Assembly (NCBI RefSeq): GCF_019688735.1
Contig: NZ_JAIFYA010000002.1
Span: 124,001-188,000 of the forward strand
Direction of reading: 5' to 3'
Length of the DNA stretch: 64,000 bases
Source of the DNA: Thermosulfurimonas sp. F29
Lineage (GTDB): Bacteria; Desulfobacterota; Thermodesulfobacteria; Thermodesulfobacteriales; Thermodesulfobacteriaceae
Shown: piece after piece, positions 34,001 through 56,852 of the stretch
Numbering within the stretch: the stretch's first letter is position 1
How the letters are laid out: each line of letters begins with the position of its first letter
Made by a program: the position numbers and the translations under genes
The notes under the pieces: generated by a model
Told to the model about the DNA's origin: nothing
Databases searched by the model: none
The model's input: only the letters and a program-made list of their open reading frames with translations

Positions 34001-34468
34001 CTGAGGGCTCCATTCCAGAAATTTCCCCACCTCCCCCTGATCGATGAGTCCGTATCCCCTGGGGTTTACGCCGGTGTCCAGGAAGAGGTACTGGATGTCT
34101 TTCAGACGGCAGGCCCGGTTGTTGAGAAGAAATTCCGATTCTCCGGTGCGATAGAGGCGGCGGGCCACCACTATTTCGGGCCAGTCCTTGAATTTTTCAG
34201 GAGCTTTTCCGTCGTTTTCCAGAACCAGCCTCACCTCGGCGAAACCGGGAGCCCGACCGTGATCCCCGGCAAAAAGCAGGTCCTCAGCGTTTTTCACCCG
34301 GAGACGCTTGAGGCTCTGTTCACCGAGGACCCAGCGCAGGGCGTCCACGATGTTGCTTTTCCCGCTTCCGTTGGGGCCCACGATGGCGGAGATCCCCGGA
34401 GGAAAGGGCAGGCTAACCCGATAGGGGAAGGACTTGAAGCCGTAGATCTCCAGTCGCTTGATCCTCAT
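31058..34468 (-). CDS. smc: Chromosome segregation protein SMC
   Basis: An 1136-residue SMC ATPase. The N-terminal head has Walker A AIVGPNGSGKSNIVDALRWV near residue 30. Two long coiled coils (about 165-500 and 660-990) flank a hinge (about 505-655, starting SGEGLRLLAEVLEIPPERIP). The C-terminal head has the signature LTMLSGGEKALCALAVLFAF and Walker B FCILDEVDAPLDEANTL. It compacts and separates chromosomes with ScpA/ScpB, which are not in this window. Length is normal for bacterial SMC. Confidence 0.96.
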   Translation of the reverse strand: MRIKRLEIYGFKSFPYRVSLPFPPGISAIVGPNGSGKSNIVDALRWVLGEQSLKRLRVKNAEDLLFAGDHGRAPGFAEVRLVLENDGKAPEKFKDWPEIVVARRLYRTGESEFLLNNRACRLKDIQYLFLDTGVNPRGYGLIDQGEVGKFLEWSPQERRFFLEELAGISRYRFNREETRRNLARTRENLARVEDLLAEIRDRVRHLEEQARLAEEFLRLREKLRRLSLTRLAILYLKALREREKAEKALERLEEARSELEKRREHLIPLYEEALRRARTLKRISREKEETLHSLKAELRERIEKLRRLYREEAEIGKRLERERTRAEALSEELERLEEERRRLEEEIASGEELLAREKEAFRELEKRYLEHRKAMGDLEREVRKRGEEEVSLKERLRNADRLLQKLEKELERILDRENRIVKTRAELSSRRMELSRRRKELEERLELVEEKRRKVGEEEEATRKKEEGLRAEVKVLEERLRDIAGEERALLREKEGLERVIRGALPPELRRLRDSGEGLRLLAEVLEIPPERIPAAEALLGEKLTYPVIRDTKALEDLLPREGVRGVFVAPGEELEILRAQLEDLDTREELKSLTAERPVKRAFFRREKVLFEPPGFLIKVEAGESGLLALRKRLREIAVRLGELEEERKGLGKKKAELERALQDLREYAGILAGKRDTLERERKALAGEVENLRREGERLSQEEALLDRERRELEEQREISVAEKKALEEERAILERELARMEGEGRKVRQRWEELKRSGRELERAFREREARVSELAGRLEALRRRRNELEGEKRKVEGRRRNALQQESLLSEELNFVRNMLRNERENRSRLEEEMERVEKEWLEIREALREAEARVAELEAEEKNLERELGRLQEKRHRLELDRVEAEMTLEHLRREAREHQDTEIESFLEETRPVRQDLSSVEEEMVRLRERLAEFPPVNLAAAEELKEARERLEFLSSRRSELLSAAEDLEKALKRLDEESRKRLREALAEANRKLAEVFPLLFEGGRAELYFTESEDPLSAGLDLRVKLPGKPVKHLTMLSGGEKALCALAVLFAFYLVKPGPFCILDEVDAPLDEANTLRFNELLKKLREHSQVILVTHNPRVMEIADALFGVTMEERGVSKVVSVRLD

Positions 34469-34491
34469 GGGCCTCTCTATTTTAAGGGCTC

Positions 34492-34519
34492 TTGACTTTT
34501 GGGAAAAGGTCTTTACATT
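34492..34519 (+). promoter_or_regulatory. tRNA-fMet promoter
   Basis: TTGACT and TACATT are separated by 16 bases. The mature tRNA begins 12 bases after the -10 box. Confidence 0.55.
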
Positions 34520-34531
34520 AATGGACGCGGA

Positions 34532-34608
<77 letters not shown>

Positions 34609-34679
34609 ATTTTCCTCAATTTTTAGCCGAGTTAGAGCAAATCATCAATTGAGATTCATTCTTGATAGTCTCTTTGGGG

Positions 34680-34800
34680 TACCTTTGGGGCACCTCTCTG
34701 GAAAGCGTTGATAGCCAAGGGTTTCTCGGTGAGACACAATTACAACAAAAGTAATTTTCAAGAATGTGTTTCTGATTTTGGGCGGTTATTCCCGATTTTT
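34680..34800. repeat. Motif pair shared with the region after tRNA-Pro; TTTGGGGYACC direct repeats
   Basis: Two adjacent copies of TTTGGGGYACC (about 34674-34695) are followed by GATTTTGGGC-GG-TTATTC-CC-GATTTTT (34774-34800). The second motif, its spacing and part of the intervening sequence match 7968-8086. Short direct repeats beside a tRNA gene are what integrase arm sites look like; this reading is inference. The stretch 34609-34834 holds no gene I can support. Confidence 0.5.
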
Positions 34801-34834
34801 CTTTGGGAAAAAGTAACGGATTCAAGGAGAGTTG

Positions 34835-35059
34835 TTAGGCAGCTTTTTTGATCGTAAGGGCCGGTTCGGGGATAGGGATGCCCTTCTCGAGATAAAATTT
34901 AAAAAGGTCGGCCTTGATTTTTTCGAGGTTGGCGAGAGCTTCTTGAGGGGTTTCGCCATCACCCTGGAAGGCTAGTTCCCCTAGTTCGGGGATGTAAGCC
35001 CGCCAGCCCCCGCCTTCTTCGGGCAGTATGGGTTCAATCGAAATGCGTTTTCTACTCAT
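34835..35059 (-). CDS. hicB: HicB-family antitoxin
   Basis: A 74-residue HicB-type protein with the partial RNase H-like fold pattern EEGGGWRAYIPELGELAFQG then GETPQEALANLEKIKADLF. It lacks a separate DNA-binding C-terminal domain, as in short HicB forms. It normally neutralises the mRNA interferase HicA. Its start overlaps the stop of a truncated hicA (ATGA), the standard hicA-hicB order. With the toxin broken, it may be a free antitoxin or on the way to decay. Confidence 0.8.
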   Translation of the reverse strand: MSRKRISIEPILPEEGGGWRAYIPELGELAFQGDGETPQEALANLEKIKADLFKFYLEKGIPIPEPALTIKKAA

Positions 35060-35217
35060 TCTTCAAACTCTTCAGGAACTATTTGTTTAAGTATAGCAAC
35101 CAATCGCCGAATATAGAACCCTTTGACTTTTTGTCCACCCTTTACTGGAATAGTAAGAACGCCTCCTGGACCGGTTCCGGCAACGCTCTTGAGCCTTTCG
35201 TCGTGGTGCCCTCGCCA
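35056..35217 (-). pseudogene. hicA: HicA-like toxin, C-terminal fragment
   Basis: Immediately upstream of hicB, a 53-codon open reading contains GHHDERLKSVAGTGPGG, VLTIPVKGGQKVKGFYIRR and ILKQIVPEEFEE before TGA. This resembles the second half of HicA (GSHH..., TIPVH, LRAILKQ...EEF). The reading is blocked upstream by TGA at 35218-35220. No start and no N-terminal half are visible. The break coincides with where the RHH antitoxin on the other strand lost its start. Assignment rests on pattern and on its place before hicB. Confidence 0.55.
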
Positions 35218-35267
35218 TCAGGAAGAAAACGAATGAGACCATTTCCCTTCCGCCAGAGCTTGCCCGG

Positions 35268-35453
35268 GTGGCGGAGGAGATAGCCCGGGAGGAAGGAAAG
35301 ACTCTTAGTGGCGTGGTTCAGGAGGCCTTGAGGCTTCTCAAAAGGCAAAGATTTTCCGAGGAATTTAAGTCCATCCAGGACTACTGGTCTCGCAAGGCTC
35401 GCGAGAAGGGCATCCTCACCGAAGAGGATCTTGAGCGCTATCTCAAGGATTAA
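35268..35453 (+). CDS. Ribbon-helix-helix antitoxin, start codon lost
   Basis: The usable reading from GTG 35268 gives 61 residues (VAEEIAREEGKTLSGVVQEA then LRLLKRQRF), part of an RHH antitoxin. Homologous-looking sequence continues 17 codons upstream as RKKTNETISLPPELAR, beginning at ATC 35217 where ATG would be expected. So the native start appears mutated or cut off. The N-terminal beta strand that contacts DNA would be missing from the GTG product. It overlaps the PIN gene by one base, a vapBC-like arrangement. Confidence 0.6.
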   Translation: MAEEIAREEGKTLSGVVQEALRLLKRQRFSEEFKSIQDYWSRKAREKGILTEEDLERYLKD

Positions 35454-35683
35454 TGCGGGTTGTCTTCGATACCAACATTTATATCTCCGCTCTGGTTTTT
35501 CCCGGAGGTCTTGCGGAAAAGGCCATCTATCGAGTCCTTGAAGGGAAAGACGAGCTTTTCATTTCCAAAGCGATCTTTGACGAGCTATTGAGAGTCTTAG
35601 CGACTAAGTTCAGCAAAGACCGGGAAGAACTTGCCCGCCTAGCGGTATGGCTATCTGAAATAGCTCAATTTGTAAGCCCCTAA
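35453..35683 (+). pseudogene. PIN-domain toxin, truncated
   Basis: A 76-residue reading starts like COG1569/VapC-type PIN nucleases: MRVVFDTNIYISALVFPGG then AIFDELLRVLATKF. It stops at ...IAQFVSP where the family continues for about 60 more residues. The remaining catalytic acids (the DPDD and GD..L region) are absent. The following bases to 35848 read openly as KKALLAKHLYGLKEELWEE in another frame but are not PIN sequence. Toxin activity is unlikely. Confidence 0.65.
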
Positions 35684-35848
35684 TTAAAAAGAAAGCTCTT
35701 CTTGCCAAACATCTCTACGGTCTCAAAGAGGAGCTTTGGGAGGAGCTTGAAAAGGGCTCTTTTAAAGGAGATGACGATGTGGTGGTGAGGGCGAGGGCTT
35801 TGTGTCCGATCTTGAGACCCTTGGGCAGAAATAATTACAAGAAAAGTT
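35684..35848. other. Unassigned scrap between the PIN fragment and the ATPase fragment
   Basis: About 165 bases readable in one plus frame (KKKALLAKHLYGLKEELWEE, then LEKGSFKGDDDVVVRARAL), with no start, no ribosome site and no family I recognise. Probably the tail of another lost gene. Confidence 0.3.
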
Positions 35849-36525
35849 ATGGAGTTTTGGGGACGCGAAAGAGAAATCGAGGTTCTCAAACGAGAGCTCA
35901 CTCGGCCTGGGTTGAGGATTTTCCTTTTACGGGGACGCAGACGGGTGGGAAAGACCGCGCTTATTCGCCATTTCTTGCAGGAAGCCGGAACGGAGGCTTT
36001 TTACCACGAGGCCGTCTCTCATGAACCACCGCGAATTTTTCTGGAGTCCTTGATGCGTTTTCTCAAGCCGGAGCATCCGTTACCCCTTGATTTCGAGGGA
36101 GTTTTCTGGTTGCTCGCGGAGAAGAGTAAGCGTTCGGGGCGCAAGCCGGTCGTGGCTATTGACGAATTTCCTGATCTCCTTGAGTCCTGGCCGGGGTTGG
36201 CCGGGCATCTGCGGCGCTGGATTGATCTCCATCCCGAGGCCAATGTCCTTTTCATCTTTGCGGGTTCTTCTCTTTCTCTTATGTAAAGCCTTTGAGGACC
36301 GTAATCAGCCCCTTTTTGGACGGACCTAAGGCACGATAGACCTCGGGCCGTTTGAGTGGAGGGAACTCACGGAGATTTTCAAGGAAGTTTCCCCGGAGAG
36401 GCTTTTCAGGATATATGCCACCATCGGAGGAACCCCTTATTGGTGGAAGGTCTGGAGGGAGCCCCTTGGGTTTGAACGGGATGTAAGTATCGGTGAGGTG
36501 CTTGACCTATTCTGGGAGCCACCGC
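35849..36525 (+). pseudogene. AAA ATPase (DUF234/archaeal-type), broken
   Basis: The first 145 codons read as a typical P-loop ATPase of the archaeal-ATPase/DUF234 type: MEFWGREREIEVLKREL, Walker A LLRGRRRVGKTALIRHF and Walker B PVVAIDEFPDLLESW, then FIFAGSS. A frameshift at about 36285 and an in-frame TAA at 36327 interrupt the continuation. That continuation still reads KAFEDRNQPLFGRT, LGPFEWRELTEIF and IYATIGGTPYWWKVW. The reading ends abruptly at the junction with the DUF1640-like copy at 36526. The C-terminal nuclease-like domain is gone. Confidence 0.75.
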
Positions 36526-36740
36526 ACTGGAGCGCCGCTATCCCCGGATCCCGGAAGTGGCCACCAAAAGCGATCTTTCCGAAACGGAACTCAAGCTCAT
36601 CAAAGAGATCGAGCAGACCCGAAAGGAAATCAAGGAAGTGGAGGGCCGGCTGGCCAGGGAAATCGAGGAGGTGGAGCTTGAGCTTTCCAGGGAGATCGAG
36701 GAAACCAGAAAGGAAATCAAAGACCACCGAAAGGCGAAGT
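36526..36740 (+). pseudogene. DUF1640-like coiled-coil gene fragment, inverted copy
   Basis: In the frame of GAG 36530 the sequence reads ERRYPRIPEVATKSDLSE, then TELKLIKEIEQTRKEIKEVE and further heptads REIEEVELELSREIEETRKE. This is the coiled-coil core of a DUF1640/CCDC90-like protein without its start or membrane tail. Bases 36526-36632 repeat, inverted, 37741-37846 on the other strand. The fragment links the broken ATPase to the Cmr1 remnant. Confidence 0.65.
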
Positions 36741-36752
36741 CCGTTGAGAATT

Positions 36753-37430
36753 ATGGTTCTGGAGAAACGGGAAAGGGAAAGCTCCAACTTTTTTAAAATA
36801 AGACGACAGAAACCGGGGGTGAACTACCTTCTCGGTCCCGGGATTGATCCAAAAGTTGCCCCTCTCGATCCGAAGGAAAGTTATATGATAGTGCGGTTTT
36901 CCGGGCCGGAGCCGGCCTTTTCCGCCGGGCTTTGCGCCCTGTGGCTGGCTTTGGTTTTCGGAGGCCTGGGGGCGAGAAGCCGACGGGGCTTCGGAAGTTT
37001 CCGGGTGGTGCCTCTTGAAGGAGACGAGGCCCCGGTAAGTTTCGCGAAGCCGGAAGGAAAGAATCTTTCTTCTTTTATCGGGCAGGAATTGGGCAAATTA
37101 AAGAATCGTCTTAAAGATCTTTACGGAGCTGATTCCAATCCGCCGCCTGAGATCCCCTCCTTTCCCGTCCTGAGACCGGAATGGTGGAATTCCACCCTGG
37201 CCTGGCCCCCTCGCTCCTTCAGAAAGAGCTATCCGGAGGCTCTGGACTACCTGGGTAAAAAATGGCGGGCCTTCAGGATGGGGAAAACCACCGCGAATCT
37301 CAAAAAGGAAGAACTTTTCGGATCCGAAACCCACACCCGGGATTATGATAGCCTCCTTTCACGGAGATGGTTTGGCCTTGGCAGAACCCGTCCCGGGGAG
37401 ATCTTTCTCCCCGGGACCTGGTTTACCTGA
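36753..37430 (+). pseudogene. cmr1: Cmr1 (type III-B CRISPR RAMP protein), N-terminally truncated
   Basis: About 225 codons show a Cmr1-type RAMP protein: PGVNYLLGPGIDPKVAP near the start, ALWLALVFGGLGARSRRGFG near residue 68, and GKKWRAFRM plus RDYDSLLSRRWFGLG near the end. The glycine-rich GGLGARSRRGFGS loop is the Cmr1 hallmark that contacts crRNA. The N-terminal ferredoxin-like part is absent, replaced by the DUF1640-like fragment. No cmr2-6, cas6 or repeat array is nearby, so this is a relic of a lost interference module. Confidence 0.7.
37390..37417. terminator. Perfect 12-bp hairpin at the Cmr1/CsgG tail junction
   Basis: GTCCCGGGGAGA-TCTT-TCTCCCCGGGAC is a flawless inverted repeat within the last codons of the Cmr1 reading, just beyond the stop of the minus-strand CsgG-like tail. 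It may be the old terminator of that minus-strand gene. The poly-T tract is missing. Confidence 0.4.
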
Positions 37431-37640
37431 GCGGCACGGTGGTGATCCGCACCTTTTCCGGAGCCAGGAAGCGGGCGATGTCGTAGGAAGCCCGGATGAT
37501 TACATCGCGGGCCACCTCCTCCATGGCCGTTCCGGAAAGTCCCGAGAGGGCTCCGCCGAAGCCCACCTCGCCTCCGGCTCCCGCACCGGCTTTTTTTCTC
37601 CTGGCGTTTCCATCTCCTGCGGTGATTGAGCTCCTGCAAC
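37423..37640 (-). pseudogene. CsgG-like lipoprotein, C-terminal fragment
   Basis: The minus-strand reading AGAGAGGEVGFGGALSGLSG, then TAMEEVARDVIIRASYDIA and RFLAPEKVRITTVPLR before TAA, looks like the C-terminal end of CsgG/curli-assembly or LpoB-like lipoproteins (glycine-rich strand, then a P/AMEEA..R..I helix). There is no start or N-terminus. Assignment is by eye and weak. Confidence 0.35.
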
Positions 37641-37648
37641 CCCGGACT

Positions 37649-37929
37649 TCAAAACAACCACTTGAGGATGCCCACCATAGCCACCACCTGCCCCGTCCAG
37701 AAAAGAAACATCCACCTCACCATCCGGGCCTCCACCTCCCTGATTTCCTTTCGGGTCTGCTCGATCTCTTTGATGAGCTTGAGTTCCGTTTCGGAAAGAT
37801 CGCTTTTGGTGGCCACTTCCGGGATCCGGGGATAGCGCGCTCCAGTTCCTCGAAGACCTCAGCCAGGAGACGGGCCTTCTCTTCCCCGTATTCCCGAAAG
37901 GCTTCGTAAATCTTTACGGCATAACCCAT
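37649..37929 (-). pseudogene. DUF1640-like coiled-coil membrane protein, one-base frameshift
   Basis: From ATG 37929 the frame reads MGYAVKIYEAFREYGEEKAR, then LLAEVFEELER. It then shifts and continues in another frame as IPEVATKSDLSETELKLIKE, EIREVEARMVRWMFLFWTGQ and VVAMVGILKWLF. The intact protein would be about 93 residues: a helical start, a coiled coil and one C-terminal membrane helix, as in DUF1640. The copy at 36530 carries GAGCGCCGC where this one has GAGCGCGC, so a single C was lost here. A sequencing error cannot be excluded. Confidence 0.7.
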
Positions 37930-37988
37930 ATTTTTTCCCTTTGATTATTCCATTTTTATCTTGATAAGCAGAAAATACAACCAAAATT

Positions 37989-38017
37989 CCCGGGTTTCCG
38001 GTTAATGAAAACCCGGG
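37989..38017. other. Inverted repeat in the gap before fur
   Basis: CCCGGGTTT and AAACCCGGG (9 bp) flank an 11-base loop. It lies in the 245-base stretch 37930-38174, in which I see no gene. The stretch may contain a terminator for scrapyard transcripts. Confidence 0.35.
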
Positions 38018-38147
38018 GTAATCTGCCCCCGATAGGTGAAGACGGAAAAGAAGTGAGGAGCCGCACCGAGAGGCATCCCGGGATTTGGTGGCGAAGCCCC
38101 CAACGCGGGAGTCGGACTTGTCCGGAAATTTTGAGGATAATGCCTGG

Positions 38148-38175
38148 TTGACAACCAGGGGAAAGACTTTAAAGT
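38148..38175 (+). promoter_or_regulatory. Promoter of fur-feoA-feoB
   Basis: TTGACA (38148-38153) and TAAAGT (38170-38175) lie 16 bases apart, 30 bases before the fur ATG, and abut the palindromic operator. Confidence 0.6.
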
Positions 38176-38195
38176 ATTGAAATAAATTTTCAATA
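38175..38195. promoter_or_regulatory. Palindromic Fur-type operator
   Basis: TATTGAAA-TAAAT-TTTCAATA is a perfect 8-bp inverted repeat with a 5-base centre. It starts at the -10 box and ends at the ribosome site of the fur-family gene. AT-rich palindromes of this type are typical Fur/PerR family sites. Autoregulation together with feoAB is the likely meaning; the regulator identity is inferred from position. Confidence 0.65.
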
Positions 38196-38204
38196 AGGTG
38201 ATTT

Positions 38205-38654
38205 ATGGAAAGACCTCCCGGTTCGGAGCTCGAAATTTTTAGGGATTTTATAAAAAAGAAAGGGCTTCGATATACAAATGAGCGTGAGATTATATTGCGA
38301 GAGATTTTCAATATACATGATCACTTTGATGTGGACGAGTTGTATCTGCGGCTGCGTAATAAGGGACATCGCATTTCCAAGGCCTCCATTTATAGAACGC
38401 TTCCTCTTCTAATCGAGTGCGGTCTGGTACAGGAGGTCTATCACGAAGACGGGCACATGCACTACGAGCACATTTACGGGCACGAGCCTCATGCTCACTT
38501 TCGCTGTCTTTCCTGTCGCCGGGTGGAGGAGTTTCGGGACGAGCGTCTGGAGGAAGTGGCCCGGGAATACGCGGAAAGGTATGGCGTGGAGATCAAGATG
38601 ACCCGGTTTGAGATCCTGGGCTACTGTTCCAACTGTCGAGAGAAGGGGGCATAG
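38205..38654 (+). CDS. fur: Fur-family iron regulator
   Basis: A 149-residue Fur-type repressor. The N-terminal winged helix has KKGLRYTNEREIILREIFNI and KASIYRTLPLLIECGLVQEV. The metal-binding half has HYEHIYGHEPHAHFRCLSC and the structural Cys pairs CLSCRR and CSNCREK. It precedes feoAB in one operon, supporting an Fe(II)-dependent regulator of ferrous uptake rather than PerR or Zur. AAGGTG precedes the ATG, and a perfect palindrome lies just upstream. Confidence 0.9.
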   Translation: MERPPGSELEIFRDFIKKKGLRYTNEREIILREIFNIHDHFDVDELYLRLRNKGHRISKASIYRTLPLLIECGLVQEVYHEDGHMHYEHIYGHEPHAHFRCLSCRRVEEFRDERLEEVAREYAERYGVEIKMTRFEILGYCSNCREKGA

Positions 38655-38656
38655 TG

Positions 38657-38952
38657 ATGGGGTTTCGGTGGCGCTGGAGGAGGGGACACTGTCACGGTCG
38701 TAAGGGCCGGGTCTGTCCGCGCGTGGAAAACCTTACCACCCTGGATGAACTGCGCACCGGAGAGGAAGGCACCATCGTGAAAATCCTGGGCAACGGTGCC
38801 TTTCGCCAGAGATTGCTGGAGATGGGGTTTCTGCCCGGCACCCGCGTGCGGGTCATCCGTTACGCGCCTCTTGAGGATCCCGTGGAGTACGAGATAAAGG
38901 GCTACCATGTGGCCCTGCGCCACGAGGAAGCGGCCAAGGTGCTGGTGGAGAA

Positions 38953-38968
<16 letters not shown>
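38657..38968 (+). CDS. feoA: FeoA-type iron transport accessory protein
   Basis: A 103-residue protein with an extra basic, Trp/His-rich start (RWRWRRGHCHGRKGRVCPR) and an SH3-like FeoA domain from about residue 27: LDELRTGEEGTIVKILGNG, RQRLLEMGFLPGTRVRVIRY and VALRHEEAAKVLVE. It supports FeoB in ferrous iron uptake. ATG 38657 has AAGGGGG upstream. It overlaps feoB by 16 bases. Confidence 0.88.
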
Positions 38969-42274
<3,306 letters not shown>

Positions 42275-55784: not shown

Positions 55785-56852
55785 CTAAAGGGGAAACCGG
55801 TAAGAATAGTAAAGGACGAGCCCCTTTTCCTTCACATAGTCTTCCACCGGAGGAGGGGTCTGGTAGGTTACCAGCAGAAGGAATTTCTCCCCGGGAAAGA
55901 AACTCTCCAGACGCTTCACCAGGGCCAGGAAGGAATCCACATCCCGCTTGCGAAGTTGCGACTTGCATTCCCCCAGGATCCACACCTCCCGTCCCTCCTT
56001 AAGGCCCTTTCCTATGAGGTTCACCTCCTCGTAGCGCCGGGGAGCCACCTCTATGTACCTTCGACGGAGGGGTTCGATCAGCCGGATCCCGAACTCCTCC
56101 TCCAGAAGACGCGGAAGGTGGGTGTAGGCCCGATCCTCGAGCATGTAACCCACGCTGTGCTGAAGGGCCCCCAGCATCTCCCGGGTCTTACGGTGTTCCC
56201 GAGTCAGTTTGCGCAGTTCCTCCTCGGTGCGCTTCTGGGCCTCGGCGAGTTCCTTCACCACCTTATCCAGATGGTTCACCCGTTCCTCGAGTCGATTCTG
56301 TCTTTCGACGAGTTTTCTTATTTCCTCCTCGGTGCGTTTCTGGGCCTCGGCCAGTTCGTTTACCTTCTCCTCGGTGCGTTTCTGGGCCTCGGCCAGTTCG
56401 TTTACCTTCTCCTCGGTGCGTTTCTGGGCCTCGGCCAGTTCGTTTACCCTTTCCTCGGTGCGCTTCTGGGCCTCGGCCAGTTCGTTTACCTTCTCCTCGG
56501 TACGCTTCTGAGCCTCGGCGAGTTCCTCGATGGCCTTCCAGACCCGCTTGAATTCCTCCTCCGTCCTTTTCCTGAACTCCCTCAGCTCCTCTTCAGTGCG
56601 TTTCTGGGCCTCGGCGAGCTCGTTTACCCTTTCCTCGGTGCGCTTCTGTGCCTCGGCCAGTTCCCTGATGGCTTCCCAGGTCTTCTCCTGGGTCTCGGAG
56701 AGCCGTTGAAGCTCCGCCTTCACCTCCCGCAGGTCTTCCCTGGAGAGCATACCGGCCCTCTGCTGATCAATTTCCTCCAGAAGGGCGAAAAAGACTTCCC
56801 GCAGTCCGGGGTCCAGATTCTCAAGAAGCCGAAAAAGTCGTGCCCTTTGCAC
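55785..56852 (-). CDS. Repeat coiled-coil protein with PD-(D/E)XK-like domain
   Basis: A 355-residue protein. About residues 45-225 are a coiled coil built from 14-residue units of the type [14 protein letters not shown]; five are contiguous. The C-terminal domain (about 235-355) has [40 protein letters not shown] (candidate E-x-K) and [20 protein letters not shown]. This fits a DUF3782-like nuclease fold. It is a longer relative of the gene at 28699-29376. It ends 10 bases before the aconitase start. Function unknown. Confidence 0.7.
56320..56525. repeat. Tandem 42-base repeats in the coiled-coil gene
   Basis: Five near-identical 42-base units (plus-strand core CGGTGCGTTTCTGGGCCTCG) encode the 14-residue [13 protein letters not shown] repeats. 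The nucleotide identity is high even at third positions, which points to recent tandem expansion or gene conversion. Confidence 0.8.

Follow-up and report, generated by a model that had tools for sequence, protein, structure and literature searches.

A nearly identical inverted pair of CCDC90-like gene fragments in a patch of decaying genes of Thermosulfurimonas sp. F29

Two fragments of one kind of gene lie in opposite orientations in the window studied here, the whole stretch of 64,000 nucleotides from Thermosulfurimonas sp. F29, and are identical over a block of about 106 positions save for one base. To judge from the sequence, this pair probably represents (with a probability of about 0.6) the remains of a CCDC90-like gene, of a kind that encodes membrane-anchored coiled-coil proteins, together with a recent partial inverted copy, situated in a patch of decaying genes. 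Neither copy appears to encode a normal family member now, as the intact paralog of the same genome (172 codons, C2:5424-5942, locus L011) does, and nothing suggests a current function for the repeat itself. What the pair shows is the ordinary evolution of a known family within a pseudogene patch. It is a small and clean example of how members of a multi-copy coiled-coil gene family undergo copying, shortening and loss where a breakpoint patch adjoins a tRNA gene. The features concerned are as follows.

34532-34608, plus strand: tRNA-Met gene, the left edge of the patch.
35453-35683, plus strand: truncated PIN-domain gene (PF13470, 41 bits), 90% identical to C2:95597-95786.
35849-36476, plus strand: frameshifted ATPase_2 (PF01637) remnant that has lost its C-terminal part (Pfam 40 bits, cut-off 33.2; ORFs of L043 and L045 matched in two frames).
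36526-36733, plus strand: CCDC90-like scrap with head end and stalk, without start region or anchor (tblastn and tblastx to the paralog).
36526-36632, plus strand: plus arm, 107 nt; it comes from where head and stalk join in a CCDC90-like (DUF1640) gene and is one base from identity with 37846-37741.
36723-37430, plus strand: RAMP (Cmr1-like) remnant without its N-terminal part, matching residues 65-279 of the 399 of L047 (31% identity, E 3.8e-28).
37426-37662, minus strand: open fragment, earlier labelled CsgG-like; in Pfam only 4HBT_3, below cut-off.
37649-37929, minus strand: CCDC90-like gene that has a head, a single short stalk unit and a membrane anchor and carries a one-base frameshift; two frames match the paralog.
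37741-37846, minus strand: minus arm, 106 nt, partner of the plus arm.
38205-38654, plus strand: fur-type gene (PF01475, 97.8 bits), the conserved right neighbour, present in 6 of 6 genus genomes including this one.

The earlier note on this DNA had described a match of about 106 positions with a single base missing from the second copy, and alignment of the two segments reproduces it without a mismatch. Compared base by base, 36526-36632 (plus strand) and 37846-37741 (minus strand) share 10 identical nucleotides, then one base is absent from the minus copy, and then 96 nucleotides are again identical, so that the 106 shared positions contain no substitution. To the left of 36526/37846 identity does not extend by even one nucleotide, and homology ends abruptly there. 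On the other side similarity continues beyond the 100% block at lower identity to about 36653/37720. The wider alignment of the pair spans 128 nt at 96% (E 7.6e-53) when the 64-kb window is compared with itself, and arms of 123 nt at 95% identity were also obtained. The arms are separated by a spacer of 1108 bp (36633-37740). At E <= 1e-3, this inverted repeat pair is the only one of its kind in the window self-comparison. The other repeat seen there is a tandem block at 56206-56679, whose copies are 69-94% identical.

The CCDC90-like family includes MCUR1 and CCDC90B in mitochondria and membrane proteins in prokaryotes, and its members are oligomeric proteins with a head-neck-stalk-anchor structure. 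A search of the own genome brought up a related stretch at C2:5421-5923, and both window copies match the intact paralog, whose product scores 38.6 bits against PF07798 (CCDC90-like, formerly DUF1640; cut-off 33.5). The part of the minus copy after the frameshift gives a weak match to PF07798, below the cut-off (18.6 bits against 33.5), and PF07798 is absent from the Pfam matches of the plus piece and of the minus-copy head piece. With the window pieces under the Pfam cut-off, family membership rests on the paralog; through it both arms are assigned to the CCDC90-like/DUF1640 family (PF07798), and the DUF1640 identity first proposed for the copies is supported. Both copies also contain VATKSD, which fits the motif [aliphatic]-A-T-K-[polar]-[DE] placed at the stalk start of DUF1640 proteins in a passage of PMC4786415. 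Like the family, the window copies have a conserved head, an ATK-type motif and a coiled-coil stalk, and the minus copy has a membrane anchor at its C-terminus; unlike the family, both are broken, the stalk of the minus copy is very short and the plus copy has no anchor. Among solved structures, phmmer found none convincingly related to the paralog (best E 0.037).

The two copies have decayed in different ways. In the minus copy the head (37932-37828) is 83% identical to the paralog, and the stalk and anchor (37837-37652) are 61-63% identical in a frame other than that of the head; in the assembled sequence the missing base thus shifts the frame of this gene, as had been claimed. Its tail is hydrophobic enough for a C-terminal anchor (best 19-residue Kyte-Doolittle mean 1.57). 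When the minus copy was compared with the paralog segment by segment, in pieces of 30, 32 and 26 codons, differences at codon positions 1, 2 and 3 numbered 10, 9 and 36 over the 88 codons, with 15 residue changes. This third-position bias suggests that the minus copy was coding until shortly before the frameshift, or else that the frameshift is a sequencing error. The plus copy matches the paralog at 58-59% over 36527-36724 or 36527-36733, starting at residue 41 in the stop-to-stop frame of the paralog, and the hydropathy of its C-terminal part (best 19-residue Kyte-Doolittle mean -0.86) is not that of an anchor. Beyond 36632 the two part ways: what follows in the plus copy resembles the middle of a stalk, and what follows in the minus copy is the end next to the membrane.

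The plus scrap is wedged between two other remnants, with the ATPase_2 homology ending at 36476, 49 unassigned nt lying between it and the cut at 36526, and the RAMP homology starting from about 36723. The arms had been said to enclose Cmr1 and CsgG-like remnants, and of these only the former finds support. The Cmr1-like remnant is related to the L047 protein as listed above and falls just below the cut-off of PF03787 (21.3 bits against 22.1), which the L047 protein itself passes with 61.6 bits. No close sequence relative of this remnant was found elsewhere in the own genome, though the genome has three more RAMP genes, at C2:383-390 kb. For the open fragment on the minus strand there is no Pfam CsgG match, the sole match being 4HBT_3 at 20.7 bits (cut-off 24.3).

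Further pieces, in the left half of the patch, recur in the opposite orientation within C2:93357-96612: 34675-34791 (72%), 35490-35679 (90%, the PIN gene) and 35688-35815 (82%). The region at C2:93.3-96.7 kb (L065:5358-8734) is itself a patch: beside a tRNA-His it holds a PIN gene, a fragment of a phage integrase (31.6 bits, cut-off 27.1) and a gene, presumably methylase-like, that is broken. The reversed recurrence of patch pieces near an integrase fragment and tRNA-His suggests, without proving, that some of what the patch holds is debris left by integrated elements linked to tRNA genes. A repeat of the tRNA-Met 3′ end beyond the patch, which could mark an attachment site, was considered and discarded: the window has no such repeat, the best other partial match being 18 nt in tRNA-Pro at 7.9 kb. 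In 34400-39000 the only known RNA found with Rfam at E <= 0.1 is tRNA.

By comparison with relatives, the patch (34613-38148) sits at a synteny break. In all 5 other genus genomes, alignment of the fetched fur-feo DNA with the window begins only at 38148-38205 and extends rightward, and in none of these 5 does the fetched sequence before fur match the patch; the genes after fur we take to be feoA- and feoB-like. On the left, the tRNA-Met side with its neighbouring gene, presumably SMC-like, is common to G001, G003 and G005, the similarity of G003 reaching 35130 shortly before its contig ends; in G004 the tRNA-Met side and the fur-feo side are in different places, and G002 gives short matches only. 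As DNA, the window pair was not found in 20 relatives, 3 of which have matches of 36-72 nt each. Just before fur, at 38034-38146, lies a dispersed intergenic repeat with related copies at C5:22194, C2:370271, C3:284661, C5:31602 and C3:102428. This small repeat has a core of about 50 nt common to its copies, GC-rich and resembling a hairpin, and Rfam gives no match there at E <= 0.1.

How long the arms have been alike can be judged from the paralog. The block of the plus copy agrees with it at 80 of 108 positions and at 19 of 36 third codon positions; selection on the protein thus does not hold this DNA constant, and yet no synonymous site differs between the two arms. The likeness of the arms is, on these counts, that of recent copying or conversion and not of selection. 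Recent duplication or conversion had been suspected at the outset, and the 0 substitutions in 106 positions between the copies, as against 80 of 108 identities with the nearest intact paralog, support it; by hand arithmetic, 0 differences in 106 put the upper 95% bound of divergence at about 2.8%.

The form of the stalks bears on how the identity ends. In a selection from the fetched loci of 13 family genes, 10 have tandem repeats at the DNA level in their stalks, with a period of 21, 33 or 54 nt, and 3 have none; the array of the paralog consists of 4.7 copies of 54 nt (92% matches). Slippage or recombination between repeats is the probable means by which stalk length changes in the family, and with such repeats a contraction of the stalk is possible; in the minus copy it would explain the end of identity without conversion. 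Long stalk arrays, of 33 or 54 nt in up to 10.7 copies, are seen at L027:1003-1890, L013:1151-1759 and L051:1236-1886.

Duplication and conversion can be weighed at the two ends of the block. Two older, diverged inverted CCDC90-like copies may have been homogenised over about 106 bp by gene conversion, a process to which a pair of arms at a distance of 1.1 kb naturally lends itself. The 100% identity drops clearly inside homologous sequence at 36633/37740, and a right end within homologous stalk fits a conversion tract equally well; the juxtaposition of different stalk units, however, explains this drop too. On the left, the end of identity is exactly the end of homology, which a conversion tract need not show. 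Since identity and homology end together there, we prefer duplication and hold conversion to be a tentative and rather unlikely alternative. In a duplication, at least the head/stalk junction would have been copied, perhaps by illegitimate or template-switching repair, into the site between the ATPase remnant and the RAMP remnant, where the plus copy would have lost its start and anchor, as its anatomy indicates. Before or after the copying, the minus copy may have lost most of its tandem-repeat stalk, as the repeats of the family suggest, and recently it would have lost one base, which is missing in the assembly. The greater completeness of the minus copy may point to a direction from minus to plus; none of the 20 relatives carries the pair, which would have polarised the direction and order of events. 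The arms were also considered as insertion-sequence ends; this was rejected, as both consist of protein-coding DNA from a gene family.

That the duplicate, or the missing base alone, is absent from the real genome we regard as quite improbable. The genome was assembled in 9 contigs, and a false frameshift would also be expected to leave a minus copy whose differences are biased to third positions, as in a gene coding until very recently; on the other side, the missing base lies outside any long homopolymer run. An assembly duplicate in particular seems unlikely, because the arms differ in their flanks on both sides and each runs into its own family-like sequence. Inverted arms of about 106 bp could recombine, and inversion of the 1.1-kb spacer is possible in principle. 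The arms have a suitable length and orientation, and what follows them differs (anchor or none), so that an inversion could be imagined to exchange the sequence after a common head and to let anchored and unanchored versions alternate. Such a switch is extremely improbable: the plus arm lacks a start region, and the adjacent pieces studied yielded no recombinase gene. Only 10 nt separate the frameshift from the head side; after a crossover anywhere in the remaining 96 of the 106 bp it would stay with the head, and no working gene would result. By geometry, one inversion product would have the start region and stalk without anchor and the other would have no start; neither arrangement would give an intact family gene, nor hence an altered version of one as expected of an invertible element. 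The flipping raised in the earlier note therefore gains no support from anything found here, the geometry restoring no gene. It is just as hard to credit that the plus scrap serves as a silent donor, with inversion or conversion swapping stalk and anchor, or the frame, between anchored and soluble coiled-coil forms. Recombination of the arms in living cells would, if true, switch a membrane anchor in an unusual manner, and nothing found supports it. Among known processes, inversion by recombination between inverted repeats, for example insertion-sequence ends (PMC3004938), comes close. The present case is like such systems in its two near-identical inverted arms about 1 kb apart and unlike them in that the arms are gene scraps rather than element ends and no inverted form is observed.

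Carriage of the gene by phages was considered and rejected, since a scan of viral contigs yielded 12 pattern-matching stretches, none of which encodes a relative. A family gene is present in 14 of 41 genomes (this one and relatives) and in 11 loci of a named genome collection, including records of Aquificaceae, Desulfurobacterium and Thiohalocapsa. In the own genome, a head-only family fragment also lies at C1:792160-792342 (L049:4161-4350), where it fills part of the space separating two genes, unrelated to it, that we take to be rpsO- and pnp-like.
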